Assembly (NCBI RefSeq): GCF_900103185.1
Contig: NZ_FNJD01000010.1
Span: 1-64,000 of the forward strand
Source of the DNA: Sulfitobacter litoralis
Lineage (GTDB): Bacteria > Pseudomonadota > Alphaproteobacteria > Rhodobacterales > Rhodobacteraceae
Direction: 5' to 3'
DNA length: 64,000 nucleotides
Each line of letters begins with the position of its first letter. The stretch's first letter is position 1. The position numbers and the translations under genes were made by a program. Shown here in pieces: positions 3,296 through 25,357 of the stretch. The notes beneath the pieces are model-generated. The model worked only from the letters and a program-made list of their open reading frames with translations. It searched no databases and had not been told where the DNA came from.

Positions 3296-4576
3296 TTACT
3301 CGGCGGCTTGATCTGCCGACGGGGAAGAAACAAGTGTACGCCAATCGACTTCTTTCGGATGAACACCTTCGTGGGACGCAATTTGCCCCTGCGGGATTTC
3401 GGACTCCGTTCCGATCGCCTTGCCGCCATCTGCCACTTTCTGCGCGGCATCTGCCATCAAGCGGCGAAACTCGACAATCGCCAGGTCGGACGCGCCAAGT
3501 GTATCGGTAGAACGCTGTACCCGGCTGCCCATGGACACCCACATGATGATATCTTCGTTCGGAATACCGGGAACACCTGTGAAATGGCCCTCTTTCATCA
3601 ACTCACGGTCTTGCATGAAGTCATTTTCGAGTGTCCGCTTGGTCCGCCACTTCTTGTCCACATCCTTACCTGGAACCGCGTGGTTAAACGCGCGCCATTC
3701 GGCATTCGATGGTACATTGGGGCCACCAAATGCCAGAAAGTGAAATGCGGTTTCGTCGTCATTAATTGGCACGATCACGCTGGCCACTTTGTAATTGTTG
3801 TTTGGCGGAATCAGTGAGTAGTAAGGCGCGATGAACTCGGTGATCCGGAGATAGTTGTGCGTCTTTGCATTCTTGATTGGCTTGCGGATCGCGGCGTAGT
3901 GGAAACCATAGCTCGTCGTTTCGGTCTGCATGCGCGGTGACTTGTCCGTCGAGGGACGGTACCAGGCCTTGTCATCTGCCGACGCACTTTCGACCCGGGC
4001 GGGCTTCATTGTGGACGAGTGCAAAGAGGAAGAGTGGGCAGAATCAATCTGACCTTCGTGGATTTGGGCCCAGTTTGCAGGAACACGGATCTTGAGTACC
4101 GCAACCGGTGTATCCTCCTCCGGCGCAAATGCGGGCGGTTGGAATTCTGGCATGTCGTCTTTTTCACCCAGCCATGCCCAGACAAAACCACCCCATTCAC
4201 GTAACGGGTAGGCGCGCGCCTTGACCTTGTCCATCAACGGGCTGCCTTCGGGCTCCGACGACATAGCGACAATATTGCCATCAACGTCCATCTTCCAGCC
4301 GTGATACAAGCAACGAAGCCCGCATTCTTCGTTGCGTCCATATACGAGAGAAGCTTTGCGGTGCGGGCAAAGCTCATCGAGCATCCCAAGGCGACCTTTT
4401 GTATCTCTGAAAGCAACGTAAGTTTCGCCGAGTACCTCCACACGCAAAGGATTGCCGTCGGGTGTATCGACTTCTTCGACAAGGCACACCGGTGTCCAGT
4501 GTTGACGCATGAGCTGCGCCATGGGAGCATCGTTTTCAACACGTGTAAGAAGCTCGTTTTCTTCGTGAGTAAGCAT
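3296..4576 (-). CDS. pht3: Rieske oxygenase alpha subunit, phthalate 4,5-dioxygenase type
   Basis: A 426-residue ring-hydroxylating oxygenase. The Rieske [2Fe-2S] site is CPHRKASL followed by CLYHGWK (residues about 70-95), and the mononuclear iron site is seen in DSAHSSSLH (Asp, two His) near residue 180. The N-terminus (MLTHEENELLTRVE, then QHWTPVCL) resembles phthalate 4,5-dioxygenase oxygenase components (Pht3/OphA2), which convert phthalate to its 4,5-cis-dihydrodiol. Matching reductase, dehydrogenase and decarboxylase genes lie at 12.5-15.6 kb. AAGGAGGAAC precedes the start. It has its own promoter with a probable MarR-type operator at 4620. Another aromatic carboxylate substrate is possible. 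Confidence 0.85.
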   Translation of the reverse strand: MLTHEENELLTRVENDAPMAQLMRQHWTPVCLVEEVDTPDGNPLRVEVLGETYVAFRDTKGRLGMLDELCPHRKASLVYGRNEECGLRCLYHGWKMDVDGNIVAMSSEPEGSPLMDKVKARAYPLREWGGFVWAWLGEKDDMPEFQPPAFAPEEDTPVAVLKIRVPANWAQIHEGQIDSAHSSSLHSSTMKPARVESASADDKAWYRPSTDKSPRMQTETTSYGFHYAAIRKPIKNAKTHNYLRITEFIAPYYSLIPPNNNYKVASVIVPINDDETAFHFLAFGGPNVPSNAEWRAFNHAVPGKDVDKKWRTKRTLENDFMQDRELMKEGHFTGVPGIPNEDIIMWVSMGSRVQRSTDTLGASDLAIVEFRRLMADAAQKVADGGKAIGTESEIPQGQIASHEGVHPKEVDWRTLVSSPSADQAAE

Positions 4577-4619
4577 AAGTTCCTCCTTAGCAAAAGTGAC
4601 TACATTAGTTTGATTAATT

Positions 4620-4646
4620 ACTTAGCTATCTAAGTTTATATGTCAA
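4620..4646 (-). promoter_or_regulatory. Promoter with probable MarR operator upstream of the oxygenase gene
   Basis: On the minus strand a TTGACA -35 box (4641-4646) is followed five bases later by the inverted repeat ACTTAG-N4-CTAAGT (4620-4635), which lies where the spacer and -10 region would be. A related repeat occurs at 8055-8070 and 15695-15710, upstream of the other two main units. Repressor binding here would block polymerase directly. The MarR gene at 8126-8701 is the obvious candidate regulator. Confidence 0.7.
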
Positions 4647-4678
4647 GCTGAGAACTGTAATTACAGTTGGGCAAATCC

Positions 4679-4969
4679 TTATTGATATAGCCAGTCGTGA
4701 AGCTGACGGTTCAGGAATGGCAATATCAGACCGGTAGTCAGGCCCGTCAGGCAAGTCGCGATGATGAACAATGAAAGGACCACAGGCGTTGAATCGAGCA
4801 CGTATCTGGAGGCAAGCACCAAGCATACCAGCGGAGGATAGACCGCGAGCATGCTCACCGCCCACCTTTTCCAGAAAACAGGCATCGAGCGCATCTCTAC
4901 GAGGTCTGATTCATCTCTAGCCTGTTTGCCGTTAGTGATTTTACTCTTTGCTGGCACGGCTATCTCCAT
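4679..4969 (-). CDS. Small two-helix membrane protein (COG3224-like C-terminal domain)
   Basis: A 96-residue protein with a charged N-terminus and two hydrophobic segments (AVSMLAVYPPLVCLVLA and VVLSLFIIATCLTGLTTGL), ending FLNRQLHDWLYQ. The pattern of a Trp-rich entry, the YPP turn and the final LxxWLY resembles the membrane part found after the antibiotic-biosynthesis-monooxygenase domain in COG3224 proteins, here standing alone. It lies between the TRAP permease and the oxygenase promoter and may be co-transcribed with the TRAP genes. Its function is unknown. Confidence 0.6.
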   Translation of the reverse strand: MEIAVPAKSKITNGKQARDESDLVEMRSMPVFWKRWAVSMLAVYPPLVCLVLASRYVLDSTPVVLSLFIIATCLTGLTTGLILPFLNRQLHDWLYQ

Positions 4970-5054
4970 TGTCTAACGAGGTCATTTTTGTTCTGGCCCA
5001 TCGCGGATTGGAAAGGCAAGGCAAAGGGAGTGTGCCCTGCCGTTCTTTTGTGGT

Positions 5055-6956
5055 TCACGACAGATTTATGGGGTCCTGCTTGCGGAGCAACATGACATAG
5101 CGCACAGCCATTGCAATAATCACGGCAATACCTACAAACGCCAATGGTATGCTTGGCAACACTGCGGCAATGGCAGCAACCACGAGGATAATTCGCTCCA
5201 CCGGACTTAGTGCTACGCCGATATAGCCCTCGATCGAAATCGCTATTGCAGCAGTAGCAAACAAACCACCGATCAAAGCCACAGTGTTCGTCGTAAAATC
5301 ACCTAGCAAAAGCAACCCGGGGTTCCAGATGAACGCAAATGGCATAAGAAACCCGATGGCTGCGAGCCTAACTGCCGAAAATGCAATCTTGAAAGGATCT
5401 GTATCGGCAATTGCGGCCGCTGCCAGCGCTGCAACCGCAATCGGTGGCGTAAGTGCAGACATAATTGCGTAGTAGAGCAAGAACATGTGGCTTTGAAGAA
5501 TCGGATATCCGAGCTTTGCCAGCGCGGGACCAACCAGTACTGCTGCAAGAATGTAAGCACTTGGAGTCGGCATTCCCAAACCCAAGATGATCGTCACAAT
5601 GGCGGCAATTATCAACGTCAAAGCCGGCTGCCCTCCACTGACTGTCAGGATCACGTTAGCTGACTTCATACCTAATCCGGTCATCGATAAACCACCAATC
5701 ACCAAACCTGCAGCGGCACATGCACCGGCCACTGGAAGAATTCGAAGCGTAGTTTCGCCAAGCCCCTCTACGATCTGCCATGGCGAAAGCCGCGTGGCTT
5801 TCAGAAGGCCAGAGGCTATGACTGCCGCCAATACTCCAACACCCGCAGTGAATGTGGGCGAATAACCTGCAACAAGGGCTGCTACTATCCCGAAGATAGG
5901 TATGAGAAATACCCAACCTGTCCCGAACGTTTCAGCAGCTGTCGGAATTTCGCCATCGGACGGTCTGAGGTCTTCCTTAACGGCCCTGAAGTGAACCTGA
6001 AGAAAAACGCCTAGGTAATAAAGCAAGGCGGGAAACAACGCAGCTAGCACAACTTCTTTGTAAGGGACTGTGGTATATTCGGCGAGAATGAATGCCGCTG
6101 ATCCCATAATCGGTGGCATCGCGCTACCGCCTGTAGATGCCGCAACTTCTACCGCGCCTGCAAAACGAGCACTGTAACCAAGGCGTTTCATTACGGGAAT
6201 GGTAATCGAACCGGTCGCGACCACGTCCGAAGTCGGACTTCCCGACATTGTTCCGTAAAGGCCCGAAGAAAGAACCGCAATCTTTGCTGGACCACCCCTC
6301 GATTTTCCGGTGACCAATGACGCGAGGTTAAAGAAAAACTCTCCGCCGCCTGATTTCGACAAAAACGTACCGAACATTACGAACAAAAAGACATAGCTGG
6401 CCACAACCTGAATCGGAACGCCGAAAACTCCGTCTGTAGTAAACACCAGAATATCAAGAAGATAAGTATATTCAGATATGCCGTGTCCGAATGGTGGCGG
6501 AAGGTAAGATCCGAACTGGTTGTATAGCAAGAACAGGACGACAACGCCCGTCAAACCCAGACCTGTGGTTCTGCGCGTCACTTCCAGCGTCAGGAATAAC
6601 AAAGCACTTCCGAAGAAAAGCTGTGCCGGCGTGAACGGATTGAGCAAGCTAATGCGGTCCGAAATTGCCCCGGCATTTAAGAAGAAAAAGATACCGCACG
6701 AGATACTGAGTAGCGTGAAAATCCAATCATAGAAGGGCACTTTGTTCGGCGCGTTAGGTGTTGCACCGATCGCGACAAACAAGATTGTGTAAATTCCGCT
6801 GACAAAAAGAATGCCCAGAATAAGAGGGTCGGAAATTGTGAACAAATTCGCGTATACGACCCAACCTGCAAAGATTGCGGAAGCAATAATCAGGGTGCGC
6901 TGCGAACCAGCCGCAAGCGTACGCCTGCGGCCGGTGGCTACAAGAGAACCTATCAC
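5055..6956 (-). CDS. TRAP transporter fused permease (TAXI type, 4TM/12TM)
   Basis: A 633-residue inner-membrane permease in which the small (DctQ-like) and large (DctM-like) subunits are fused, as in TAXI-TRAP systems. Roughly 16-17 hydrophobic segments can be counted; GLYGTMSGSPTSDVVATG, GLGMPTPSAYIL and ALTPPIAVAALAAAAIA are typical of the DctM-like half. The start overlaps the stop of the TAXI binding-protein gene by four bases, so the two are translationally coupled. It would bring an organic anion into the cell by a sodium or proton gradient; given the context the substrate is probably phthalate or a related aromatic acid, which is inference. Confidence 0.93.
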   Translation of the reverse strand: MIGSLVATGRRRTLAAGSQRTLIIASAIFAGWVVYANLFTISDPLILGILFVSGIYTILFVAIGATPNAPNKVPFYDWIFTLLSISCGIFFFLNAGAISDRISLLNPFTPAQLFFGSALLFLTLEVTRRTTGLGLTGVVVLFLLYNQFGSYLPPPFGHGISEYTYLLDILVFTTDGVFGVPIQVVASYVFLFVMFGTFLSKSGGGEFFFNLASLVTGKSRGGPAKIAVLSSGLYGTMSGSPTSDVVATGSITIPVMKRLGYSARFAGAVEVAASTGGSAMPPIMGSAAFILAEYTTVPYKEVVLAALFPALLYYLGVFLQVHFRAVKEDLRPSDGEIPTAAETFGTGWVFLIPIFGIVAALVAGYSPTFTAGVGVLAAVIASGLLKATRLSPWQIVEGLGETTLRILPVAGACAAAGLVIGGLSMTGLGMKSANVILTVSGGQPALTLIIAAIVTIILGLGMPTPSAYILAAVLVGPALAKLGYPILQSHMFLLYYAIMSALTPPIAVAALAAAAIADTDPFKIAFSAVRLAAIGFLMPFAFIWNPGLLLLGDFTTNTVALIGGLFATAAIAISIEGYIGVALSPVERIILVVAAIAAVLPSIPLAFVGIAVIIAMAVRYVMLLRKQDPINLS

Positions 6957-7936
6957 TTGATCAAACCTGCTTCTTTATAGACTGCAGCTGCAGCTGGGTG
7001 GAATTCAAGAACGCTCGGCTTTGCAAGAAGTTCTGGTGACAGCGCTTTCATGGCTCCGTGTACGGCGCGAATTTCATCCATGTGGTTAAGCAGCGAGCTT
7101 GCCAGAGAACCTGCGGTTGCGTCGTCCATTGCATCTGTGGTGACCAGAAGTGCTCCGAGGGTAACAGTTTCAAGATCGCCAGCTTGATTAGGATAGCTGC
7201 CAGCAGGAATGACCATTGTACCTGTCCCGAATGCTTCATTCGTCGCGGCGATAACCTCCGCAGGAACCGCCAGCAAAACAACATCACTGTTTTCGTTCAC
7301 AGCTCTGAAGGAAGAGTGGTTAATGAAAATTCCGTTTGTGATCATATCCAGGCGCCCGTCCTGAATCAAATCGGCCTGCTCGTTCGCTCCGGCGCGAACA
7401 AATTGTCCGCCTGCGTTGCTAAGTGACTCCTCGGTTACACCAACCAATTCTAGCATATGCAGGGCTATGTTTGATGTAATGTTGCCGGACCGGTTGATCC
7501 CGATCCGCACCGCTCCCCCGCTGGTCGCGATATCGTCAATACTGTCAATGTTGTATTTTTCAGCAACCGAGCGCTCGAGGAAGAAATGCATTGGTGCCCA
7601 GTTGTACATGTAGCCAATGGCGCGCATGTTCTCAACGGGTGCTTGGAACGGCTCACCGCCGTCCAGTGCGATTTTTGCTTCTGCGTCATGTACCAAACCA
7701 AGGTCCGAACGGTTGGTGCCAAGCAGACCGATGTTCGCAAAACCACCACCAGTCGCCTGATATGTCACGACAGAAGATGAATCATCAACTTTGGTCGCGC
7801 GGTCAATACCAGCGCCGAGAAGCGACCATAGCCCGCCGGGGTTACCACCGGACAAAGTAAGATTCACAGGTTCCGCGACGGCGAAAGTCGTTGTTGCAGC
7901 GATGCAAATAGCAGCCGCCAGTGCAGTCAGTCTCAT
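6953..7936 (-). CDS. TAXI-family TRAP solute-binding protein
   Basis: A 327-residue periplasmic binding protein with a Sec signal peptide (MRLTALAAAICIAATTTFAVA, cleaved near residue 21). The mature N-terminus LTLSGGNPGGLWSLLG is typical of the TAXI family. The gene has a GGGAGGAAG ribosome site and is the first of its unit, reading into the fused permease. It would capture the substrate in the periplasm. A promoter with a MarR-type box lies about 110-135 bases upstream. Confidence 0.92.
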   Translation of the reverse strand: MRLTALAAAICIAATTTFAVAEPVNLTLSGGNPGGLWSLLGAGIDRATKVDDSSSVVTYQATGGGFANIGLLGTNRSDLGLVHDAEAKIALDGGEPFQAPVENMRAIGYMYNWAPMHFFLERSVAEKYNIDSIDDIATSGGAVRIGINRSGNITSNIALHMLELVGVTEESLSNAGGQFVRAGANEQADLIQDGRLDMITNGIFINHSSFRAVNENSDVVLLAVPAEVIAATNEAFGTGTMVIPAGSYPNQAGDLETVTLGALLVTTDAMDDATAGSLASSLLNHMDEIRAVHGAMKALSPELLAKPSVLEFHPAAAAVYKEAGLIK

Positions 7937-8046: not shown

Positions 8047-8070
8047 TGTCAACTACTTAGATATCTTATT
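8047..8070 (-). promoter_or_regulatory. Promoter with probable MarR operator upstream of the TAXI-TRAP genes
   Basis: A repeat half-matching the other two operators, ACTTAGATATCTTATT (8055-8070), sits just upstream, in the minus-strand sense, of a TTGACA -35 box (8047-8052). The operator therefore precedes the -35 box here instead of overlapping the spacer. It lies between the MarR gene and the binding-protein gene, and is the least symmetrical of the three sites. Confidence 0.55.
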
Positions 8071-8125: not shown

Positions 8126-8701
8126 TCAAAGGCCGTTGCGCGAACGCGTAGAGGGAATCTTTAGGCCTCGGGAAGCGCCAACCTTTTCATCATGTTCAAG
8201 GTTTCGAATCATTTTGCTCAATGCACGGCGCAGGATCGTAACCTCATCATCCTTGAGCCCTGCAATGGCAGATTCGTTGGTTTCAACAGCCATTGGCTCT
8301 AAACGATCGCGCAAATCCCAGCCCTTCTCCGTCAGAAAGGCATGTTGGCGTCTCTTGTTGCTGCCAACGTTCCGGCGAACAATAAAGCCAAGCTCTTCCA
8401 TGCGACGCAATGCGGAATGCGCGGTTGGCTCGGTCAAGTGTGCCTTGTCGCTCAGTTCACGCTGTGAAAGGCCATCGTGGCTCCACAATATTCGTAAAAA
8501 TATCCACTGGCCGAACGTCACGCCCTCGGTGTTTAACCGCATCTGTAAAGACCGGTTGAAAGCGCGCGCAGCAAGTCGAACCAACCGCGCAATTCGCTCT
8601 TCCGACTGTCCGGCCGAATGCGGAATGCTACCTTCAGGGGGTAATTCTGTCACTTGTGCATCTCCGGGTTCGCGATTTTTGCCTGCGACCCAACGTTGCA
8701 T
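8126..8701 (-). CDS. MarR-family transcriptional regulator
   Basis: A 191-residue winged-helix regulator. The recognition helix region is LSQRELSDKAHLTEPTAHSAL, followed by the wing (LGFIVRRNVGSNKRR). MarR proteins usually bind palindromes as dimers and let go when an aromatic ligand binds. The gene lies between the phthalate enzyme unit and the TRAP unit, all on one strand. Three similar inverted repeats upstream of 4576, 7936 and 15632 suggest it controls the whole upper pathway. The N-terminal 30 residues are poorly conserved, so a later start is possible. Confidence 0.9.
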   Translation of the reverse strand: MQRWVAGKNREPGDAQVTELPPEGSIPHSAGQSEERIARLVRLAARAFNRSLQMRLNTEGVTFGQWIFLRILWSHDGLSQRELSDKAHLTEPTAHSALRRMEELGFIVRRNVGSNKRRQHAFLTEKGWDLRDRLEPMAVETNESAIAGLKDDEVTILRRALSKMIRNLEHDEKVGASRGLKIPSTRSRNGL

Positions 8702-8751: not shown

Positions 8752-10512
8752 TCAGTTGTTGGTCATCCCGTCGGTCATGTCGTCGCTATAGCCAGGCGTC
8801 ACTCTTGCATCGACAACAACGGTTTTCCCTTCTTGCGCGGCACGGATCGCCTCTGCGAGTGTTGTGTTTAGCTCCCCGATCGTCTTCACCGGCCCGAAGG
8901 CCTTGGCTCCCTGCGCTGCTGCAATCGCGGCGATATCGATGTCCGGCTCGCCGATTGCCTGCCCGACATGTTTGTTTTCTACGGGCCGGCTCCGATCAAT
9001 TGCGACGCGCTCCTGATGCACCTCATCATTGAAATAAGACCGGTTGTTCGCGACGACTATGAGCAACGGAACTTTGTGATGTGCTGCCGTCCAGATTGCG
9101 GTTGCCCCCATCATGAAATCGCCATCCCCCAAGACAGCGACCGGCAGGCGATCGGAATCTTTAAACGCGAGGGCGGATCCAACAGCCATTCCAGGCCCTG
9201 AACCGATGCCTGCGCCGCCATCATATCCGAGATAATCCAGAGGGCCGCGGAAATCACATTTCGAGCCGTTCCAGCTCAGTGTGAGGCGTAAAAAGCTCGC
9301 GGTTTCCTCGCTCAACGCGTCGGCCAAAACATCAGAAAGAGAGTCGATGGATATCTGAGCATCCGGATGATGATCGGGACGCGCCGGTGCCTCGATTGCC
9401 ATTTTCCCAACAGCCATATCTGAAAGCCCCGCTGCCAGACAGATTGCACGGATCGCTTCGTCGGGGTCCGCCAACATGGTAAGGTCCGAAGGTGAGAGCG
9501 ACTGGTGGTCCAGCGACCAGCCATTGGTCAGCAGGGAATCGAGCGAGATATTTACAACTTTAGTGCGCTCAAGGTCGACATCGGCCTGTTGCAATGTTCC
9601 ACCAAGATCAACCCAATCGAAGCTGACAACCAGATCGGCTTGACCGATACGCTGCGCAGCATCCTGCGACACAAAGTAGCCCGGTGCACCAAAATGCAGT
9701 GGATGGCATGTTGGAAATGCTGCGGCGGTCTTGATATCAGTGACAACACGGGCCCCGAAATGCTCCGCGAGCGCGACGCGCCGGTTCCAATCTGCCTGAT
9801 CGCGCGACACCCGCCCCATCAAGAAGACCGGTTTTTCTGATGTTTCCAGCAAATCTAAAACCGAACGTGCATCGGATTCCGAGAATTGCGCCATTCGGGG
9901 TGCGGCATGGCGCTCTGGTGACGGAAACGCCGGCATTTCGTCGATTGGCTCTTCTTGTACGGATACGTCAAAACAGACATAGGTTGGCGCCTTGGGTGCC
10001 GTCTGTGTGATAATCGAAGACCGCAACATCGAAGATAATGACGCCTCCAGCGAAGCGGGCTGGTCATCCCATTTCACATAAGGGCGGATGATCGCAGCCT
10101 GATCGCGCGACGTATGTATCCAGTCAATCCAAGGCCTGCGCTTGGCGGCATCCACCGGACCTGTAGCGCCGAAAATCAGCATCGGCACGCGGTCGCACCA
10201 TGCATTATATACGGCCATGGAAGCGTGCATTACACCGACGTTCGCATGTAGGATTACGGCCAATGGTGTGCCTGTAACTTTGGCCCAACCATGCGCGATG
10301 GCAACCGCGTGTTCTTCGTGCAGGCATAACAGCATCTGCGGATCGCGATTGCCCAGGTAGTTGACGAGGCTGTCATGTAGTCCTCGAAAGCTCGAGCCAG
10401 GATTGAGCGCCACATAGGGCGTGTCGAGCTTGCGCAGCATCTCAGCAATGGCATCGCTGCCGAAAAGCTCTGTGATTTCGCTGGGAATTGGGCGGTCTAG
10501 ATCATCGTTCAT
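8752..10512 (-). CDS. Thiamine-diphosphate-dependent enzyme (benzoylformate decarboxylase/acetolactate synthase family)
   Basis: A 586-residue ThDP enzyme with the usual three-domain layout. The N-terminal pyrimidine domain contains the Glu region LCLHEEHAVAIAHGWAKVTG, and the C-terminal domain has the GDGD...NN cofactor motif (AVLGDGDFMMGATAIW, then VANNRSYFN). The start at 10512 is chosen because GGAG precedes it. It follows the aldehyde dehydrogenase by 21 bases in the same unit. Such a pair could decarboxylate a 2-oxo acid and oxidise the resulting aldehyde, as in mandelate/benzoylformate routes. Neither step is needed for phthalate, so the substrate is open. Confidence 0.8.
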   Translation of the reverse strand: MNDDLDRPIPSEITELFGSDAIAEMLRKLDTPYVALNPGSSFRGLHDSLVNYLGNRDPQMLLCLHEEHAVAIAHGWAKVTGTPLAVILHANVGVMHASMAVYNAWCDRVPMLIFGATGPVDAAKRRPWIDWIHTSRDQAAIIRPYVKWDDQPASLEASLSSMLRSSIITQTAPKAPTYVCFDVSVQEEPIDEMPAFPSPERHAAPRMAQFSESDARSVLDLLETSEKPVFLMGRVSRDQADWNRRVALAEHFGARVVTDIKTAAAFPTCHPLHFGAPGYFVSQDAAQRIGQADLVVSFDWVDLGGTLQQADVDLERTKVVNISLDSLLTNGWSLDHQSLSPSDLTMLADPDEAIRAICLAAGLSDMAVGKMAIEAPARPDHHPDAQISIDSLSDVLADALSEETASFLRLTLSWNGSKCDFRGPLDYLGYDGGAGIGSGPGMAVGSALAFKDSDRLPVAVLGDGDFMMGATAIWTAAHHKVPLLIVVANNRSYFNDEVHQERVAIDRSRPVENKHVGQAIGEPDIDIAAIAAAQGAKAFGPVKTIGELNTTLAEAIRAAQEGKTVVVDARVTPGYSDDMTDGMTNN

Positions 10513-10533
10513 TGCTGTCTCCAACTATCCTGC

Positions 10534-16353: not shown

Positions 16354-16920
16354 ATGAGCAATCTTTATTGGCTGAGCGAAGATCAAATGGCGCGGCTCCG
16401 GCCGTATTTTCCGAAGAGCCATGGCGTGCCACGCGTTGATGATCGTCGCGTCCTCAGTGGTATTATCTTCGTCAATCGCAATGGCTTGCGGTGGTCTGAT
16501 GCGCCGAAAGAGTATGGTCCTCCCAAGACGTTTTACAACCGCTGGAAACGGTGGAGCGATATGGGTGTGTTCGCGAGGATCATGACCGGACTGGCTGCGG
16601 AGGCACCCGAGAATAAAACGATCTCCATTGACGCAACTTATCTCAAAGCGCACCGCACAGCCTCAAGCCTGCGGTTGAAAAAAGGGGGCGTGGACGCCTG
16701 ATCAGGCGAACGCAAGGCGGTATGAACACGAAGCTGCATGCCGTCACCGACACCATTGGGCGGCCAATCCGGTTCTTCATGACCGCAGGCCAGGTTAGTG
16801 ATTACACTGGGGCCAGAGCTTTGGTGGAAAGCCTGCCAGCCGCTGATTGGTTATTGGGAGACCGAGGTTATGACGCAGATTGGTTCCGTGAAGCCCTTGT
16901 AGGCAAAGGAATGAACCGCC
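16354..16920 (+). pseudogene. IS5-family (IS427-type) transposase, 3'-truncated
   Basis: The first ORF (16354-16701) reads MSNLYWLSEDQMARLRPYF with the family stretch GLRWSDAPKEYGPPKTFYNR and the first Asp in ISIDATYLKAHR. The second ORF, in another frame from 16722, reads MNTKLHAVTDTIGRPIRF and contains the second Asp region WLLGDRGYDADWF. IS427-type elements use a programmed frameshift to join such halves. The second half breaks off near 16915 (GKGMNRPLFAGE), before the catalytic Glu, and IS3-like sequence follows. The element is therefore inactive. Confidence 0.85.
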
Positions 16921-17075: not shown

Positions 17076-17079
17076 TGAT

Positions 17080-18028: not shown

Positions 18029-18132
18029 GCGGATCACTATGTTCGCATAACGAATAAAGATCAAGATGCGCACAAATAGTTTCGCGCAAGCGACAGAATG
18101 ATCTACATCGGCAACAAAAAAAGGAGTGTTTC

Positions 18133-18852
18133 ATGGACAAAACCATCCCTACCTTGGAAAAGGCGATTTCCGAAATCCCCGACGGCGCGCAGATCATGAT
18201 CGGCGGTTTCGGCGGTTCTGGCGCACCAATCGAGCTGATCCACGCATTGATCGACCGCTTTCGTGCAACTGGCAGCCCAAAGAATGTCACTGTAATTAAC
18301 AACAATGCCGGAAACGGATTTATCGGCATCGCAGCCATGATCAAAGCTGGAATGGTTGGCAAGATGATCTGCTCGTTTCCGCGCAGTTCCAACGCAGAAG
18401 CGTTTAATGAGAAGTATCTTGCTGGCGATATTGAACTAGAACTCGTGCCGCAAGGGACTTTGGCCGAACGCATTCGTGCGGCTGGGGCGGGCATTCCTGC
18501 GTTTTATACGCCGTCATCCTTTGGCACCGAACTCGCGAACGGCAAGCCAACTGAGGAATTCGAGGGAAAAAGTTATGTGCGAGAGCACTGGCTAAAGGCG
18601 GACTTCGCTTTAATCAAAGGTCAAGAAGGCGACACTGTCGGAAACTTAACCTATCGCCTCGCAGGGCGGAATTTTAATCCGCTGATGGCCATGGCCGCTG
18701 ACAAGACCATCGCGCAGGTCTCCGTATTGGGTGCTGCTGGAACCATAAACCCAGAGCAAGTAATAACGCCCGGCATCTTTGTCGATGCGGTGGTCGAGGT
18801 TTCAAATCCTCAACAAGAAGAAGTGCTTGTTCGCACAGGAGAGGTTCACTGA
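18133..18852 (+). CDS. pcaI: 3-oxoadipate CoA-transferase subunit A
   Basis: A 239-residue family I CoA-transferase alpha subunit. The N-terminal glycine-rich stretch MIGGFGGSGAPIELIHAL and AGMVGKMICSFPRS are typical of PcaI. With PcaJ it transfers CoA from succinyl-CoA to 3-oxoadipate. AAAAGGAGTG precedes the start. Its stop overlaps the start of pcaJ (TGATG), giving coupled translation. First gene of the pcaIJF operon, divergent from the IclR gene. Confidence 0.96.
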   Translation: MDKTIPTLEKAISEIPDGAQIMIGGFGGSGAPIELIHALIDRFRATGSPKNVTVINNNAGNGFIGIAAMIKAGMVGKMICSFPRSSNAEAFNEKYLAGDIELELVPQGTLAERIRAAGAGIPAFYTPSSFGTELANGKPTEEFEGKSYVREHWLKADFALIKGQEGDTVGNLTYRLAGRNFNPLMAMAADKTIAQVSVLGAAGTINPEQVITPGIFVDAVVEVSNPQQEEVLVRTGEVH

Positions 18853-19544
18853 TGACTGATTTCAACATTTCCGATGTGGCCCTATCCAACGCTCAAATTG
18901 CGTGGCGCGCGGCCCAAGACATCGAAGACGGTTCATATGTGAATCTTGGCATCGGTTTCCCTGAGATGATCGCCAAGTTCCAACCTGATGGTCGCGATGT
19001 TACCTATCACACTGAAAATGGCGTGTTAGGTTTTGGCAAAGCGCCGCTTGAAGGCGAGGAAGACTGGGACCTGATCAATGCAGGGAAAAAGGCGATTACG
19101 CTTAACCCCGGTGCTTCGTATTTTCATCACGCTGACAGTTTCGCGATGGTTCGCGGTGGGCACCTCGATTTGGCTGTTTTAGGAGCCTATCAGATTGCCC
19201 AGAACGGGGATCTTGCAAATTGGCGTATCGGCTCCAAGGGTGTTCCTGCCGTTGGCGGTGCGATGGACTTGGTCCATGGCGCAAAGCGGGTCGCTGTTGT
19301 CACCGATCATGTCACCAAAGATGGCAAACCCAAGCTAGTTGAATCCTGCACCTTCCCACTTACTGGTGTAGGATGTGTTACGCGGGTTTATACCTCACTG
19401 GCTGTAATAGATATTGCGGGTAGTAAATTCGTTTTGAAAGAAAAATTGCCAGCGGTCACCCTAACGCAACTGCAATCGGTGACGGGTGCGACGCTGCACA
19501 TTGATGGCGAAGTTGCCGACCTTACTGTTCCTGAGGATTTGTAA
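18852..19544 (+). CDS. pcaJ: 3-oxoadipate CoA-transferase subunit B
   Basis: A 230-residue beta subunit. The catalytic Glu lies in YHTENGVLGFG (residue about 55), preceded by YVNLGIGFPEMI. It forms the transferase with PcaI. The start overlaps the pcaI stop by one base and the stop abuts the pcaF start, so the three genes form one tightly packed operon. Confidence 0.96.
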   Translation: MTDFNISDVALSNAQIAWRAAQDIEDGSYVNLGIGFPEMIAKFQPDGRDVTYHTENGVLGFGKAPLEGEEDWDLINAGKKAITLNPGASYFHHADSFAMVRGGHLDLAVLGAYQIAQNGDLANWRIGSKGVPAVGGAMDLVHGAKRVAVVTDHVTKDGKPKLVESCTFPLTGVGCVTRVYTSLAVIDIAGSKFVLKEKLPAVTLTQLQSVTGATLHIDGEVADLTVPEDL

Positions 19545-20744
19545 ATGACTGGCGTTTATATCTGCGATTACATCCGCACACCGATTGGCCGCTATGGCGG
19601 CGCTTTGTCAACCGTGCGCGCCGACGATCTGGGTGCAATTCCGCTAAAGGCTTTGGCTGAACGCAACCCTAAAATGGACCTATCTGCTATTGATGAAGTG
19701 ATTTTTGGTTGCGCCAACCAAGCGGGCGAAGACAACCGCAACGTCGCTCGCATGTCTTTGCTGTTGGCAGGCTATCCGGATTGCGTCCCTGGTACGACGA
19801 TGAACCGGCTCTGCGGCTCAGGCATGGACGCGGTGATAACTGCGGCGCGTGCCATTAAGGCAGGCGAGGCCGAATTGATCGTCGCAGGCGGTGTCGAATC
19901 CATGTCACGTGCGCCGTTTGTAATGCCTAAGGCAGAAACCGCGTATTCCCGCGCGAACACCGTCCATGATACAACCATTGGCTGGCGCTTCGTTAACCCA
20001 GTGATGAAAACGCTATATGGCTTCGATTCCATGCCCGAAACTGGGGAGAACGTTGCCGAAGATTTTGGCATTACCCGCGCAGATCAAGATCATTTTGCAC
20101 TGCGATCACAGCACAACGCAGGCACCGCGATAGCGCAAGGGCGTTTTGCCAAAGAGATCACACCGGTAAGGGTTCCGCAGCGCAGAGGCGATCCAATTAT
20201 CGTGTCCGAGGACGAACATCCGCGGCCATCAACCACGTTGGCAGATCTCCAAAAGCTGAAGGCCTTCGTCAAGGCCGACGGAACAGTGACAGCCGGGAAT
20301 GCCTCTGGCGTGAACGACGGCGCTGCGGCGCTCATCCTGGCCAGCGAAGACGCGGTAAAAAAGCATGGGCTAAACCCAATTGCCAAGGTATTAGGCGGCG
20401 CTAGCGCCGGTGTCGCGCCACGCATCATGGGTTTTGGCCCCGCGCCCGCGTCCCGCAAATTGATGGCAAGGCTTGGCCTGACGGTGAACGATTTTGCGGT
20501 CATCGAACTGAACGAAGCTTTTGCCTCACAGGGGTTGGCCACATTGCGTGATCTGGGCATTGCTGACGATGACGCTCGTGTAAATCGTAACGGCGGCGCG
20601 ATTGCGCTGGGGCATCCATTGGGCATGTCGGGTGCAAGGATCACTGGCACAGCGATGCTAGACCTCAAGGCTGGTGAAAAATCTTTATCGACCATGTGTA
20701 TTGGGGTCGGTCAAGGTATCGCAATCGCCTTGGAAGCCGTCTAG
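19545..20744 (+). CDS. pcaF: 3-oxoadipyl-CoA thiolase
   Basis: A 399-residue thiolase that cleaves 3-oxoadipyl-CoA to succinyl-CoA and acetyl-CoA, the last step of the beta-ketoadipate pathway. The acylated Cys is in NRLCGSGMDA (about residue 90), with NEAFASQG, the His motif GGAIALGHPLGMSGAR and the second Cys in CIGVGQG near the C-terminus. The start codon directly follows the pcaJ stop. Full length and apparently intact. Confidence 0.96.
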   Translation: MTGVYICDYIRTPIGRYGGALSTVRADDLGAIPLKALAERNPKMDLSAIDEVIFGCANQAGEDNRNVARMSLLLAGYPDCVPGTTMNRLCGSGMDAVITAARAIKAGEAELIVAGGVESMSRAPFVMPKAETAYSRANTVHDTTIGWRFVNPVMKTLYGFDSMPETGENVAEDFGITRADQDHFALRSQHNAGTAIAQGRFAKEITPVRVPQRRGDPIIVSEDEHPRPSTTLADLQKLKAFVKADGTVTAGNASGVNDGAAALILASEDAVKKHGLNPIAKVLGGASAGVAPRIMGFGPAPASRKLMARLGLTVNDFAVIELNEAFASQGLATLRDLGIADDDARVNRNGGAIALGHPLGMSGARITGTAMLDLKAGEKSLSTMCIGVGQGIAIALEAV

Positions 20745-20751
20745 GATAATC

Positions 20752-20788
20752 GCATCAGCGAGCAGTATTAAGTGCCGCCCGCTGATGC
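20752..20788. terminator. Inverted repeat between convergent pcaF and pcaQ
   Basis: Nine-base arms GCATCAGCG (20752-20760) and CGCTGATGC (20780-20788) enclose 19 bases and include the pcaQ stop codon. Lying between converging genes it may act as a weak two-way terminator, but there is no clear T-run. Confidence 0.45.
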
Positions 20789-21669
20789 AGCAATTCGGCT
20801 AATAGAGTCGCCAAGCTATTCTGGCCAGCGCCGGTCTTACGCGTCAGCCCCACTGCACCTGACAAATAGTCGACCTTTAAATCCATAGCGACAAGGCTGC
20901 CGTTTTTCAGCTCACGCGCAACGACACCCTTTGAGATAAACCACAACATTTTCGAACGTTCCAGCAATGTCAGCGCGACTGGCAAAGCTACGGTTTCGAG
21001 CGCCGGACGCAGATCAGACAGACCCATGGCTGACAGATACTGATCTACAGATTGTCGAATGATTGCACCGGGGTTGGGCAGGATAAGCGGGTATTCCGTA
21101 AGCATCTGAGCCGGTTTACGGCCAAGTGCCGGATGATCTGAGCGCGCGACCAGTTCTATCGGTTCGTCATAAAGGTGTTCAAACGACAGGCCTGGCATAT
21201 CCTTTGAATTGGGCATCCGGCCTATCATAAGATCAATCTTCCCAGAACGGAGCATGTCGATCAGATAGTGATTTGGACCGGTCAGCACGCCAATGCGCGC
21301 GTCAGGACGCTGATCATAAAACTCCAATGCGACCGAAGGAAAAAATCCGCCGGCCACAGTGGGCAACACCCCCGCTTTGACCAGATCCGTATGCGACGGG
21401 GCACTAAGCACCCGACACCCAGCCTCAAGGCTTTGTAGTGACGCCTTTGCATGGCGGCGAAAAACCTCACCACCCGTTGTTAGAATAGCGCGTCGCCCTG
21501 TACGCTCGAACAATTGGCATCCAAGCTGCCCCTCAAGATCAGATAGGGTTTTAGACATCGCAGGTTGCGACACATGCTGCGCCCGCGCAGCGCCCGAAAT
21601 CGTTCCAGTCTCCGCAATTGCGAGGAATGCCTCAAGATGGCGAAGCTTTAGATCTCTTGGTATATTCAT
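20755..21669 (-). CDS. pcaQ: LysR-family regulator PcaQ
   Basis: A 304-residue LysR protein with an N-terminal HTH (LRHLEAFLAIAETGTISGAA, then HVSQPAMSKTLSDLEGQLG) and a substrate-binding domain. In Agrobacterium and Sinorhizobium PcaQ sits beside and activates pcaDCHGB in response to 3-carboxy-cis,cis-muconate and 3-oxoadipate enol-lactone. The same divergent arrangement with pcaD holds here. Confidence 0.93.
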   Translation of the reverse strand: MNIPRDLKLRHLEAFLAIAETGTISGAARAQHVSQPAMSKTLSDLEGQLGCQLFERTGRRAILTTGGEVFRRHAKASLQSLEAGCRVLSAPSHTDLVKAGVLPTVAGGFFPSVALEFYDQRPDARIGVLTGPNHYLIDMLRSGKIDLMIGRMPNSKDMPGLSFEHLYDEPIELVARSDHPALGRKPAQMLTEYPLILPNPGAIIRQSVDQYLSAMGLSDLRPALETVALPVALTLLERSKMLWFISKGVVARELKNGSLVAMDLKVDYLSGAVGLTRKTGAGQNSLATLLAELLHQRAALNTAR

Positions 21670-21744: not shown

Positions 21745-22527
21745 ATGCACGCACTAGATTTAGAGTGGGGCACCATGCATCTAAGCCTATCAAATGGCGA
21801 CGGACCCACCCTCGTTTTCCTAAATTCGCTGGGCACCGATCTTCGTATGTGGGATGCGGTTTGCGCCCTATTGCCCACTGATTGGGCCACGCTGCGGATG
21901 GACAAGCGTGGGCATGGGCTTTCAGATACAGCGCCCGACAGCTACAGCATTCCCGATTTGGCAAAAGACGTATTGGCCGCAATGGACAACGTTGGCATCA
22001 ACCGCGCAGTCGTAGTTGGCTGTTCGATTGGCGGCTTGATTGCACAGCATATCGCCTTGATGGCACCCGAGCGGGTCTTGGGGTTGGTATTGTCCAACAC
22101 AGCGCCAAAGCTGGGCTCCGCTGAGGATTGGCATGCGCGTATTGAGATGATCAATGAAAGTGGTATGCGCGCTGTGGCAGAGGGCATTTTGCCGCGTTGG
22201 TTTGGGCCCGAGTTTCTCATGAAACCAGAGGTCAACCTATGGCGCACGCTGCTCGCACGCACTGACCAGGCGGGATACGTTGCCACCTGTAACGCGATTG
22301 CAGGCACTGACATAACAGAACAACTGAGTGAGATTGCGGCACCTACGCTGGTTTTTGCAGGACAACACGATTTGGCCACTCCGCCGAACGTCATTGCGGC
22401 GCTAGCAGCTGCCCTACCCGACGCCGATCTGATCTCTTTTGAAACGACGGGGCACTTGCCCGCGATTGAAGCGCCGGATGCACTTGTCGATGCACTCATT
22501 AGTTTTGTTAAAAGGATTACCCCATGA
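21745..22527 (+). CDS. pcaD: 3-oxoadipate enol-lactonase
   Basis: A 260-residue alpha/beta hydrolase that opens 3-oxoadipate enol-lactone to 3-oxoadipate. The nucleophile Ser is in GCSIGGLIAQ (about residue 90), the acid is in the VFAGQHDLATPP region and the His in ETTGHLPAIEAP. AGGAGG lies seven bases before the start. Its stop overlaps the pcaC start (ATGA). Confidence 0.95.
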   Translation: MHALDLEWGTMHLSLSNGDGPTLVFLNSLGTDLRMWDAVCALLPTDWATLRMDKRGHGLSDTAPDSYSIPDLAKDVLAAMDNVGINRAVVVGCSIGGLIAQHIALMAPERVLGLVLSNTAPKLGSAEDWHARIEMINESGMRAVAEGILPRWFGPEFLMKPEVNLWRTLLARTDQAGYVATCNAIAGTDITEQLSEIAAPTLVFAGQHDLATPPNVIAALAAALPDADLISFETTGHLPAIEAPDALVDALISFVKRITP

Positions 22528-22910
22528 GCGAAAAGTTCGACCAAGGGATGAAAACCCGCCGCGAGGTTCTGGGCGACGCCCATGTTGACCGTGCGGAAGC
22601 CGCAAAATCAGAATTCGACCTACCTTTCCAAGGCCTCATAACCGAAGGGGCCTGGGGTACCGTCTGGTCGTCGGACAAAATCAGCCGGCGCGAGCGTTCT
22701 ATGCTGACCATCGCTCTTTTGGCCGCGACAGGAAATTTTGAAGAAATCCCGATGCACATTCGCGCCACCGCACGCACGGGAGCGTCTAAAGACGATGTGG
22801 CTGAGGCACTACAACATGTCGCGATCTATGCGGGCGTGCCCAAAGCCAACCACGCCCTAAAACTCGCGAAACAGACTTTTGTTGAAATGGAGGAAAACAA
22901 CGATGCTTGA
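22524..22910 (+). CDS. pcaC: 4-carboxymuconolactone decarboxylase
   Basis: A 128-residue CMD-family protein. Typical sequence includes KTRREVLGDAHVDRAEA at the N-terminus, QGLITEGAWGTVWS, and HIRATARTGASKDDVAEAL. It decarboxylates 4-carboxymuconolactone to 3-oxoadipate enol-lactone. It overlaps pcaD by four bases and pcaH by eight, so it is translationally coupled on both sides. Confidence 0.96.
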   Translation: MSEKFDQGMKTRREVLGDAHVDRAEAAKSEFDLPFQGLITEGAWGTVWSSDKISRRERSMLTIALLAATGNFEEIPMHIRATARTGASKDDVAEALQHVAIYAGVPKANHALKLAKQTFVEMEENNDA

Positions 22911-23631
22911 TCTTGGCCCATTAATTCCGCGCAACCGCGAAATTCACCCGATACCGCATGCCCCGGACTATAAAACGAGCGTCTCTCGCTCCCCTAACCT
23001 GCCGCTCCTTTCAATGGAAAGCGGCCTTTCTGAGGAAACCGGCCCCACCTTTGGCCACAACAAACTCGGAGCGCTAGACAACAATCTGATTTTGAATTGG
23101 AGCAAAGGCGCGGCCCCCGCTGTGGGTGAACGCATCTTGGTCCACGGGCGCGTATTGGATGAAAATAGTCGGCCCGTGCCTCATACTTTGGTCGAGATTT
23201 GGCAGGCAAATGCGGGCGGACGATATCGCCACAAGAAAGATACCTATTTCGCGCCCCTTGATCCAAACTTTGGCGGATGCGGTAGGACGATAACGGACGA
23301 AAACGGCTATTACGAATTTCTGACTGTGCGTCCCGGAGCCTATCCTTGGCCCAATCGGGGCAACGATTGGCGCCCCATGCACCTTCACGTCTCAGTGTTC
23401 GGAAATAGTTTTGGTCAGCGCTTGATTACCCAGATGTATTTCGAAGGTGATCCGTTGATCAATCACTGCCCGATTGCCGCAACAATCAAAGATCGCAGCC
23501 AACTTGACCGGCTTGTGGCCCCGCTTGATTTCTCAAAGTCGCGCCCGCTAGATTTCCTTGCGTACAAGTTTGACATCGTGTTGCGCGGCAGGCGTCAAAC
23601 CATGTTCGAAAACAAATTGGAGGGGATGTAA
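22903..23631 (+). CDS. pcaH: Protocatechuate 3,4-dioxygenase beta subunit
   Basis: A 242-residue intradiol dioxygenase subunit. The non-haem Fe(III) ligands are all visible: Tyr in KDTYFAPLDPNFGG, Tyr in RPGAYPWPN and the two His in RPMHLHVSVFG. The start at 22903 overlaps the end of pcaC, and an earlier frame opening at 22879 is not needed. With PcaG it cleaves protocatechuate to 3-carboxy-cis,cis-muconate. Confidence 0.96.
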   Translation: MLDLGPLIPRNREIHPIPHAPDYKTSVSRSPNLPLLSMESGLSEETGPTFGHNKLGALDNNLILNWSKGAAPAVGERILVHGRVLDENSRPVPHTLVEIWQANAGGRYRHKKDTYFAPLDPNFGGCGRTITDENGYYEFLTVRPGAYPWPNRGNDWRPMHLHVSVFGNSFGQRLITQMYFEGDPLINHCPIAATIKDRSQLDRLVAPLDFSKSRPLDFLAYKFDIVLRGRRQTMFENKLEGM

Positions 23632-23632
23632 A

Positions 23633-24238
23633 ATGAGCCAGAAATTAAATACATTGATTGAATCCGCTTCTCAAACTGCGGGCCCCTATGTCCACATCGG
23701 CCTAATGCCGACCTATGCAGGCAATGCTGGCTATTATGACGAAGAAATCGGCACCACCCCATTTCTAGACGAGGGCAATGCCAAAGGCGAGATTGTCGAG
23801 ATCGTCGGCTCTGTGTTTGATGGCACCGGTTGGGCGATGCGCGATGCGTTGATCGAAAGCTGGCAATGTGACGCGAGCGGCCTGTTTGCGGGCGCAGAAG
23901 GTTCGGATCCGGCCTTTACCGGCCACTGCCGTTTTGCCGCCGACGCGGACTCCGGTGAATTTACACTGCGCACGGTCAAACCCGCCCCCACCACGGGGCG
24001 TGGCGGTGTTAAACTCGCGCCGCATATCTCGCTTTGGGTTGTGGCGCGGGGGATTAACATCGGCCTGCAAACCCGCATCTATTTCGAAGATGAGGACAAT
24101 TCCAACGATCCACTTTTGAACCGGATCGAACAACGTCCGCGCGTTGACACGCTAATCGCCCAAAAGACCGGCGACGGGAAATACAGATTTGATATTCGGC
24201 TTCAAGGCGCTGGCGAAACCGTGTTTCTAGATATCTAA
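23633..24238 (+). CDS. pcaG: Protocatechuate 3,4-dioxygenase alpha subunit
   Basis: A 201-residue alpha subunit opening with the typical SASQTAGPYVHIGLMP. It lacks the iron ligands, as the family does, and pairs with PcaH. The gene starts one base after the pcaH stop, behind GGAGGGGATGT. It ends before a strong hairpin at 24257, so pcaB may be expressed partly by read-through. Confidence 0.96.
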   Translation: MSQKLNTLIESASQTAGPYVHIGLMPTYAGNAGYYDEEIGTTPFLDEGNAKGEIVEIVGSVFDGTGWAMRDALIESWQCDASGLFAGAEGSDPAFTGHCRFAADADSGEFTLRTVKPAPTTGRGGVKLAPHISLWVVARGINIGLQTRIYFEDEDNSNDPLLNRIEQRPRVDTLIAQKTGDGKYRFDIRLQGAGETVFLDI

Positions 24239-24256
24239 ACCTGCACCGATATGATT

Positions 24257-24285
24257 AAATGGGGTGCATGATGCGCCCCATTTTT
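24257..24285 (+). terminator. Rho-independent terminator between pcaG and pcaB
   Basis: An 11-bp stem, AAATGGGGTGC against GCGCCCCATTT with one G-T pair, encloses a 4-5 base loop and is followed by a run of five T. It is placed 18 bases after the pcaG stop and 20 before the pcaB start, so it would reduce pcaB expression relative to pcaDCHG. Confidence 0.8.
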
Positions 24286-24304
24286 ACGTGATTAGGAAAT
24301 CGCG

Positions 24305-25357
24305 ATGACTGTATCTGCCTTCAATCACCTATGGCTTTCGGGATTATTTGGTGATCTCGCAATGGGCGAAGTATTTTCGCCCGAAAGGCAAATGGCGCAC
24401 ATGCTCGCCTTCGAGGCGGCGTGGTCACGCGCTTGCGGAGCGGCTGGGCTATTTGACCCGACTAGGGCCGAAACTGCCGCGTGTGCGATCGAAACAGCAC
24501 AGGTCAATTATGCAGATATCGCAGCGGGAATGGCACAAGACGGCGTTCCGGTTCCGCGTTTGGTGAAACAGTTGCAAGCAATTGCGCCTGCCGATGCCCT
24601 GCACAAAGGTGCCACTTCACAAGATGTGGTCGACACGGCGCTGGCGATGACCCTGCGCGAGGCATCAGATCTGATTGCCGCTCGGTTGGCCGATTTGGAA
24701 ACACATTTAATGGCACTAGAGGCCCGTTTCGGGGACAGGCCACTTATGGGGCGCACCCGAATGCAGGCCGCCACCCAAATCACCGTGCGCGACCGGATAT
24801 TGACATGGCACTGTCCATTGAAAGGGCATTTGGATCGGTTGGAGATGCTGCGTCCAAAGACCGAAAAGGTTCAGATCGGCGGTGCGTCGGGCGACCGCAA
24901 GGCGCTTGGTGACAAGGCCGATACGGTTGTCGCCGAGGTCGCCAAATCTCTTGGCCTCGCACCAACGAATAAAGCGTGGCACACTATGCGCGAAAGCGTG
25001 ACTGAGTATGCTTCGTTTCTATCGCTAGTGAGTGGAACGCTGGGCAAGGTGGGTCAGGATATTTCCTTGATGTCCCAACAGGGCATCGAGGAAATTAGTA
25101 TGTCTCGCGGTGGTGGATCGTCGGCAATGCCCCATAAACAAAACCCTGTCGCAGCAGAACTATTGGTCACGCTGGCACGATTTAACGCAACCCAAGTCTC
25201 GGCGATGCACCACGCCATGGTGCATGAACTGGAACGTTCGGGCGCGGCTTGGGCGTTGGAGTGGATGATATTGCCGCAAATGGCGATGGCCACGGCGCGG
25301 GCGCTTACCGTAGCTATCGACCTGTCTCAGAATATCACCCGATTGGGCAGTGATTAA
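24305..25357 (+). CDS. pcaB: 3-carboxy-cis,cis-muconate cycloisomerase
   Basis: A 350-residue fumarase/aspartase-superfamily protein. The signature SSAMPHKQNPV lies near residue 277, with TSQDVVDTALAMTLRE and GRTRMQAATQITV earlier. It forms 4-carboxymuconolactone from the PcaHG product. Many PcaB proteins run to about 450 residues; the shorter form without the C-terminal extension is common in Alphaproteobacteria. It is separated from pcaG by a terminator-like hairpin, although the gene order pcaDCHGB is conserved. Confidence 0.94.
   Translation: MTVSAFNHLWLSGLFGDLAMGEVFSPERQMAHMLAFEAAWSRACGAAGLFDPTRAETAACAIETAQVNYADIAAGMAQDGVPVPRLVKQLQAIAPADALHKGATSQDVVDTALAMTLREASDLIAARLADLETHLMALEARFGDRPLMGRTRMQAATQITVRDRILTWHCPLKGHLDRLEMLRPKTEKVQIGGASGDRKALGDKADTVVAEVAKSLGLAPTNKAWHTMRESVTEYASFLSLVSGTLGKVGQDISLMSQQGIEEISMSRGGGSSAMPHKQNPVAAELLVTLARFNATQVSAMHHAMVHELERSGAAWALEWMILPQMAMATARALTVAIDLSQNITRLGSD

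Follow-up and report, generated by a model that had tools for sequence, protein, structure and literature searches.

A plasmid-borne phthalate block bounded by IS6 elements in Sulfitobacter litoralis, with a putative entry module for phthalonate and 2-carboxybenzaldehyde

Does the block of aromatic-acid genes on a plasmid of Sulfitobacter litoralis serve phthalate alone, and has it moved as one piece? The block lies in the first 64 kb (64,000 nucleotides, here called the window) of a 134,221-base contig (NZ_FNJD01000010.1, our C26) in a genome of 3.68 Mb; a RepABC-type RepC and a ParA-type protein are encoded in the window, and the contig is therefore a plasmid. A first-pass annotation, made from the sequence alone, had read positions 3296 to 25357 as one mobile block leading from phthalate to central metabolism. 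Domain models and solved relatives recover every gene that it named, each where it had been placed, and support its interpretation, with a core that is right and ordinary and an entry point that is incomplete.

We favor, with fairly high confidence, an account in which a 26.2-kb catabolic block on a repABC plasmid, lying between two direct copies of an IS6-family insertion sequence (IS), was acquired as a unit, accepts phthalonate and 2-carboxybenzaldehyde as well as phthalate, and is controlled by a MarR-family regulator. A TAXI-type TRAP transporter (TAXI-TRAP) would import the substrate. Judging from homology, the oxygenase and reductase would convert phthalate to phthalate 4,5-cis-dihydrodiol, Pht4 would oxidize the dihydrodiol, Pht5 would convert 4,5-dihydroxyphthalate to protocatechuate, and the products of pcaHGBCDIJF would carry protocatechuate to central metabolism. 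Ahead of phthalate, a thiamine pyrophosphate (TPP) enzyme would convert phthalonate (2-carboxybenzoylformate) to 2-carboxybenzaldehyde, and the aldehyde dehydrogenase (ALDH) encoded beside it would convert 2-carboxybenzaldehyde to phthalate, so that the block would feed on oxidized side-chain precursors besides phthalate itself. MarR probably represses three promoters through a common palindrome and would be released by an aromatic acid. The phthalate (pht) part of the block reads as follows (ORF, open reading frame):

2252 to 3160, minus strand: EamA/DMT-type transporter (Pfam EamA)
3296 to 4576, minus strand: phthalate 4,5-dioxygenase oxygenase, Pht3/OphA2 type (Pfam Rieske and LigXa_C)
4620 to 4635: putative palindromic operator, 59 bp ahead of the oxygenase start
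4679 to 4969, minus strand: 96-aa hydrophobic ORF between TRAP permease and oxygenase
5055 to 6956, minus strand: TRAP fused permease (TIGR02123, 564 bits)
6953 to 7936, minus strand: TAXI-type TRAP solute-binding protein (TIGR02122, 133 bits)
8055 to 8070: putative palindromic operator ahead of TAXI-TRAP
8126 to 8701, minus strand: MarR-family regulator (Pfam MarR)
8752 to 10524, minus strand: TPP enzyme, benzoylformate-decarboxylase-like
10534 to 12015, minus strand: ALDH (Pfam Aldedh)
12081 to 12515, minus strand: 145-aa protein of no known family, directly 3' of pht5
12525 to 13517, minus strand: 4,5-dihydroxyphthalate decarboxylase, Pht5 (9jp7_A, 434 bits)
13514 to 14710, minus strand: phthalate 4,5-dihydrodiol dehydrogenase, Pht4 (Pfam Gfo/Idh/MocA)
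14694 to 15692, minus strand: dioxygenase reductase with NAD-binding and C-terminal 2Fe-2S domains
15695 to 15710: putative palindromic operator ahead of the reductase-led operon

By homology, each step of the route to protocatechuate that had been proposed, through oxygenase, reductase, dihydrodiol dehydrogenase, and decarboxylase, is encoded. Pht4 and Pht5 are encoded together in overlapping ORFs, Pht5 matching the solved 4,5-dihydroxyphthalate decarboxylase 9jp7, and the reductase carries a C-x4-C-x2-C motif plus one further C downstream in sequence. The TAXI-TRAP uptake genes are likewise in the block (5055 to 7936), and excerpts of a review describe TAXI-TRAP uptake of ortho-phthalate in denitrifiers (PMC13040137). 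EamA-type transporter homologues (35 to 70%) recur in many related pht loci, and two loci (L005 and L097) have shorter hypothetical genes at the place of the 96-aa ORF, a likeness in position.

The protocatechuate branch lies to the right of the pht genes:

17270 to 18073, minus strand: IclR-type PcaR/PcaU regulator (TIGR02431, 312 bits, above cutoff)
18133 to 19544, plus strand: pcaI and pcaJ (TIGR02429, TIGR02428)
19545 to 20744, plus strand: pcaF (TIGR02430, 677 bits)
20755 to 21669, minus strand: PcaQ-like LysR regulator (TIGR02424, 285 bits, under the cutoff of 304)
21745 to 22910, plus strand: pcaD and pcaC (TIGR02427, TIGR02425)
22879 to 24238, plus strand: pcaH and pcaG (TIGR02422, TIGR02423)
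24305 to 25357, plus strand: pcaB (PRK05975, 436 bits)

All eight structural genes that the first-pass annotation had invoked to complete protocatechuate breakdown are present. The products of pcaI, pcaJ, pcaF, pcaD, pcaC, pcaH, and pcaG each exceed their NCBIfam cutoff, and pcaB is recognized by PRK05975 only, being above that cutoff (436 versus 371 bits) and below that of TIGR02426 (332 versus 356 bits). The three local regulators are a MarR, a PcaR/PcaU-type IclR, and a LysR whose best model is PcaQ, at a score under the cutoff. The set pcaIJFDCHGB with PcaR- and PcaQ-type regulators is that of the known beta-ketoadipate pathway, from which the block differs in carrying these genes together with pht between IS6 copies and otherwise in nothing unusual. 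Because pcaHG-like genes are also found on another contig, C18 (64% and 36% identity to the plasmid pcaH), the plasmid branch appears from sequence to be partly redundant and not the sole protocatechuate route in the genome.

What the first-pass annotation missed is the pair of genes for the TPP enzyme and ALDH, which sit in the pht operon in the interval from MarR to pht5. Since a TPP decarboxylase and an ALDH share this operon, phthalate is probably not the sole entry point of the block. To set the pair in context, we surveyed 295 genomes of the same family, our own included, scoring the best candidates per genome (4 for TPP, 5 for ALDH, 6 for the phthalate dioxygenase [PDO], 7 for Pht5, and 13 for the 145-aa protein). 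Pht5 matches of at least 58% occur in 20 genomes, every other match being at most 46%. PDO matches of at least 61% occur in 18 genomes and ALDH matches of at least 75% in 9, all of them among the 20 with Pht5; the ALDH gene has one stop in 2 of 11 listed places, and the 75% limit would miss the Thalassospira-type ALDH (~50%). TPP matches of at least 55% occur in nine genomes, in all nine on the same contig as a Pht5 match of at least 58% and within about 11 kb of it (hypergeometric probability 4e-12, kinship uncorrected). The TPP and ALDH genes thus look like optional extensions of a phthalate core.

A wider sample of TPP-anchored loci (best 80 of 200 confirmed) gives a similar association, with PDO and Pht5 both present in 17 of the 80 and an ALDH of at least 45% in all 17. 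In a midpoint-rooted FastTree phylogeny of 95 TPP proteins, one clade of 28 holds 26 of the 28 PDO-linked tips (support 0.99); the two outside it are, by exclusion, those of L031 and L032 (Comamonadaceae), which on tree position suggests a separate recruitment. Residues S44, E70, and H93 of the window's TPP enzyme match S26, E47, and H70 of benzoylformate decarboxylase, whose catalytic residues we take to be Ser26, Glu47, His70, and His281. At position 44, Ser occurs in 23 of the 24 TPP enzymes linked to PDO together with Pht5, and Ala in 39 of the 56 for which there is no Pht5 match at all; the other 15 of the 95 rows, the window's included, belong to neither group. The Ser tracks the tree, and ancestry may explain it.

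Related plasmids extend the series backward. In three of them (L004, L093, and L094), a 2-hydroxyacid dehydrogenase gene lies directly 3' of the TPP gene, and the same cluster includes a gene for an alpha-hydroxyacid oxidase; the L094 copies match models of the 2-hydroxyacid dehydrogenase type and the FMN L-lactate dehydrogenase type, none above cutoff among the matches listed. A fourth, L006, is a degraded copy in which 32% of TPP is covered and relatives of both 2-hydroxyacid genes persist, the second over 55% of its length. Mandelate catabolism (MdlB, MdlC, and MdlD) runs a 2-hydroxyacid oxidase, a TPP decarboxylase, and an ALDH in series, and L004, L093, and L094 resemble it in holding all three in one cluster. 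They differ in the tie to phthalate, by which the substrates would bear an ortho carboxylate: a series ending in phthalate would start from 2-carboxymandelate and pass through phthalonate and 2-carboxybenzaldehyde. The window has the last two steps only. Our search of the open-licence PMC literature for phthalonate or its synonyms listed no title on bacterial catabolism and no paper on a bacterial gene for this decarboxylation.

As a separate observation, a Pht5 homologue (66%) on a Rhizobium plasmid (L098) is accompanied by a TPP enzyme, an alpha-hydroxyacid oxidase, an ALDH, and a P450, with no PDO match in the stretch examined; this cluster is possibly a variant entering at hydroxylated phthalates.

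Several findings weigh against a phthalonate role for the pair. His281 of benzoylformate decarboxylase aligns to a glycine, in a weakly aligned region, and the TPP enzyme fails the model for that decarboxylase (PRK07092, 154 bits against a cutoff of 493); its top NCBIfam model is PRK08327 (210 bits, cutoff 456). Among the 25 models listed for each, neither the TPP enzyme (49 models in all) nor the ALDH (40 in all) passes an NCBIfam cutoff. The window ALDH is just 50% identical to that of the Thalassospira cluster in L095, and the window's first 28 kb show no alpha-hydroxyacid oxidase, the nearest relatives in this genome being 34 to 47% identical. TPP matches of 41 to 48% at other places in the 295 genomes speak against exclusive linkage to Pht5, and in 11 of the 20 genomes with Pht5 no TPP match reaches 55%, for which reason the TPP enzyme is not required for the phthalate route itself. 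Because genome G149 (TPP 51%, ALDH 57%, about 1.2 kb apart) and a Pacificitalea plasmid (L092; TPP 50%, ALDH 57%) carry the pair with no Pht5 match, TPP-ALDH pairs also serve some other function.

The strongest rival builds on these points. It holds that phthalate is the only pathway substrate and that the TPP enzyme and ALDH act on another 2-oxo acid and aldehyde, such as a substituted benzoylformate or a non-phthalate compound, merely sharing the operon. Besides the Pht5 genomes that have no close TPP match, it can draw on the 13 of 58 loci with TPP below 55% in which ALDH is present with neither PDO nor Pht5, and on Novosphingobium pCAR3, Agrobacterium pAt2, and Pacificitalea pDY25-E, where such a pair behaves as a portable module. 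Against it, TPP enzymes of at least 55% in the same family occur solely beside Pht5, the pht-linked enzymes fall mostly in one clade, and phthalonate decarboxylated and then oxidized would yield the dioxygenase's very substrate; the co-occurrence also makes it less likely that the pair are unrelated passengers. We regard this rival as unlikely, though still a serious competitor, and retain the reading in which the pair would feed phthalonate and 2-carboxybenzaldehyde into the phthalate route.

How exceptional is such a cluster? Similar clusters occur on other Roseobacter-group plasmids, some with pca genes, and excerpts of a published study report a phdK-pht cluster in Thalassospira GO-4, Roseovarius indicus, and Rhodobium orientis, GO-4 growing on 2-carboxybenzaldehyde (PMC9604089). 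That growth lends support to the proposed entry at 2-carboxybenzaldehyde. As described in the study, the phdK-pht cluster resembles the window in uniting ALDH, Pht2/3/4/5, TRAP, and MarR; it differs in that pht and pca of GO-4 lie far apart on the chromosome, whereas the window's unit is IS6 bounded and on a plasmid. A TPP gene is not named in those excerpts, and the word thiamine is missing from the main text of PMC9604089. The Thalassospira plasmid cluster L095 does contain a TPP gene, and its gene order, like its ALDH sequence, differs from that of the window. The phthalate pathway, TAXI-TRAP uptake, and the phdK-pht association are thus already published. The first-pass annotation had called a one-transfer phthalate pathway ecologically notable in a marine-type bacterium; the similar Roseobacter-group plasmids and the Thalassospira cluster make it less exceptional.

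Phthalate clusters L004, L006, L093, L094, and L095 also contain an extra nadC (quinolinate phosphoribosyltransferase), with a match in L096; the window's first 28 kb yielded no nadC. It is plausible that the cluster copy is a phthalate-tolerant enzyme protecting NAD synthesis, because the human enzyme (QPRT) binds phthalic acid with nearly the affinity that it has for quinolinate (Kd of 5.2 versus 4.8 uM in the excerpted report, PMC4726147).

Regulation appears to be shared across the pht genes. A near-perfect palindrome stands at 4620, 8055, and 15695, ahead of the oxygenase, TAXI-TRAP, and the reductase-led operon, and no further site occurs in the 64 kb at up to two mismatches. The pattern was written after the three window sites had been viewed, which biases the window shuffle figure and makes the test on other loci the fairer one. 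Allowing up to two mismatches, 19 related loci that are also kin to each other (416,041 bp) contain 30 matches, of which 29 fall in the 350 bp ahead of a cluster gene; such regions account for 7.5% of the bases. The 61 control loci, of unmatched G+C (997,137 bp), yield zero matches. Two related loci (L024 and L025) have no operator at two mismatches. The count excludes L012 and L020, which are near-identical to the window, and also the PDO- or TPP-bearing L006, L010, L018, L022, L023, L027, L031, L032, L070, and L125. MarR (8126 to 8701) is a candidate binder because its gene lies in the cluster and, on this positional evidence, is probably the owner of the operator before the three pht transcription units. 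We take the palindromic operator to be new here, in a comparison that did not extend to two papers in which phthalate, MarR, operator, TRAP, and protocatechuate all occur.

Whether the block has moved as one piece turns on its edges and insertions:

1 to 111: left IS6-family copy, 3' end only, cut by the contig start; 99% identical to 706 to 816 of the right copy and in the same orientation
216 to 1581, minus strand: IS110 insertion, transposase ORF 472 to 1584 (NCBIfam IS110)
16281 to 16911, plus strand: partial DDE transposase insertion between pht and pca
25745 to 26308, plus strand: ParB-domain gene, shortened to 187 aa by the right IS6
26288 to 27104, minus strand: right IS6-family copy with 15-bp terminal inverted repeats (NF033587, 230 bits)

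The mobile unit is window 112 to 26287 (26.2 kb), between two direct IS6 ends, and the right copy has perfect 15-bp terminal inverted repeats. G+C, in 2-kb steps, is 51 to 57% in the first 26 kb versus 56 to 66% in the remainder of the window. A contig (C5) of another Sulfitobacter, DFL-14, matches the block at 97.8% over 14,725 bp, 95.9% over 3,774 bp, and 97.6% over 5,945 bp, with smaller matches of 93.3% over 209 bp and, at the left edge of the block, 87.5% over 104 bp; rpoB of the two genomes is 83.2% identical over 3,385 bp. This homology ends at window 112 and 26287, both IS6 ends, and DFL-14 thus holds a homologue of the cargo with coinciding ends and without the IS6. Its homologue of the ParB-domain gene encodes 730 aa, against 187 aa in the window, where the gene is cut exactly at IS6. 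HyVt-317, a metagenome-assembled genome in which a binning error is possible, is 99.97% identical over all 19,114 bp available, with rpoB at 88.6%.

Since block identity far exceeds rpoB identity, the simplest account on these comparisons is that the block was acquired as an IS6-bounded unit by recent transfer. Its resemblance is to IS6/IS26-type pseudo-compound transposons and translocatable units, a known class, in having two direct IS6 copies around the block and no duplication at the right copy; it differs in the catabolic cargo on a Roseobacter-group plasmid and in a left copy that is incomplete in the assembly. The IS110 is a later addition, because it is missing from that place in DFL-14, whose DNA joins window 215 to 1582. 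The claim of one mobile block therefore stands in its IS6 bounds and its sharing with another genome apart from later IS insertions, with a wider extent of 112 to 26287 in place of 3296 to 25357; mobility is better supported than had been claimed.

Two observations count against transfer as a unit: just 111 bp of the left IS6, which the contig end truncates, are assembled, and no 8-bp target duplication was found around the right copy, the one copy checked. Together with the two additional IS insertions inside the block, they would fit a rival in which the IS6 copies are chance insertions beside a plasmid-inherited, immobile cluster. The start and stop of DFL-14 homology at the IS6 ends, the ParB-domain gene severed exactly there, and the excess of block over rpoB identity in two genomes make that rival improbable, and acquisition as an IS6-bounded unit is preferred.

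A further candidate, that pht and pca were united merely by the DDE insertion, was rejected: DFL-14 has the two adjacent without an insertion there, and an 87% copy of the element lies elsewhere on contig C5.

The substrate of the oxygenase can be judged from its relatives. The LigXa_C domain, presumably named after an O-demethylase, is shared by diverse oxygenases. The closest solved relative is 7fjl_A (564 bits across residues 1 to 415, no gaps to about residue 288), titled merely Rieske protein, which we take to be the phthalate dioxygenase of Comamonas testosteroni KF1 (PDO-KF1). As excerpted, work on PDO-KF1 has R207 and R244 contacting the carboxylate, assigns S182 a key role for phthalate, I256 a role in dioxygenation, and F280 one in stabilizing the ring, and places V178 and L198 of an isophthalate enzyme at the positions of S182 and R207 (PMC12445078). 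All five residues occur in the window oxygenase and in 7fjl alike under the same numbering, without the isophthalate V/L pair, and by this alignment favor ortho-phthalate over isophthalate, in keeping with the initial assignment. That its substrate is instead a different aromatic acid, whether isophthalate, trimellitate, 4-hydroxyphthalate, or an O-methyl aromatic, as the diversity of LigXa_C oxygenases would allow where sequence alone leaves the substrate unfixed, is very improbable given S182 and R207 and the Pht4 and Pht5 genes in the same cluster. An isophthalate- or O-demethylase-like assignment is likewise ruled against by the residues and solved relatives, which favor phthalate.

One more gene accompanies pht5. 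The 145-aa protein has no Pfam or NCBIfam match, and a Pfam search of 11 family members gave only three chance-level families, each in one member. Its AlphaFold model is confident (pLDDT 92.7), and Foldseek found no significant match in the PDB (best E 0.049, TM 0.22; the viral library was not searched). With a profile built from pht-linked members, which favors recovery of those, it was found in 18 of the 295 genomes, 17 of them among the 20 with Pht5, and at 17 of 19 places its gene lies at most 60 bp after pht5; the exceptions are G233, on another contig, and G284, without Pht5. A closer relative (L121, 43%) follows a gene annotated as solute-binding protein, a Gfo/Idh/MocA gene, and a reductase, as in the window. 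Three distant relatives were examined: those in Rhizobium L122 and L124 (34% and 38%) lie beside immunity genes, and that in Simkania L123 (34%) does not. The immunity neighbors in the two Rhizobium plasmids are of the Imm8, immunity-53, and MafI types. A protein of no known family, apparently new here, it may at a guess be a partner or protector of Pht5. We offer only tentatively, at somewhat under an even chance, the fuller picture of a phthalonate-to-central-metabolism island with a phthalonate decarboxylase, extended back to 2-carboxymandelate in related plasmids, plus a near-obligate Pht5 partner that lacks a PDB fold match and possibly comes from a family with distant immunity-gene relatives.

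Elsewhere in the window, an ORF at 50640 to 51764 is an odd fusion of a multicopper-oxidase domain with an NADPH-dependent FMN reductase domain; a plasmid-borne ScpB-like segregation protein adjoins a DUF1403 protein (27344 to 28848); and a TRAP DctM permease gene is followed by a cytochrome P450 gene (55984 to 58790), possibly a second uptake and oxidation unit.

Phthalate is a plasticizer product and also arises as an intermediate when polycyclic aromatics are broken down. The near-identity, in distinct genomes, of a cassette that is complete, self-regulated, and IS6 bounded shows how an entire catabolic route can spread within the Roseobacter group, and the operator sequence offers a means of searching for such regulons. 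Should the TPP step hold, these bacteria would have a dedicated entry for oxidized aromatic side-chain acids, hidden under the annotation "thiamine pyrophosphate-binding protein."

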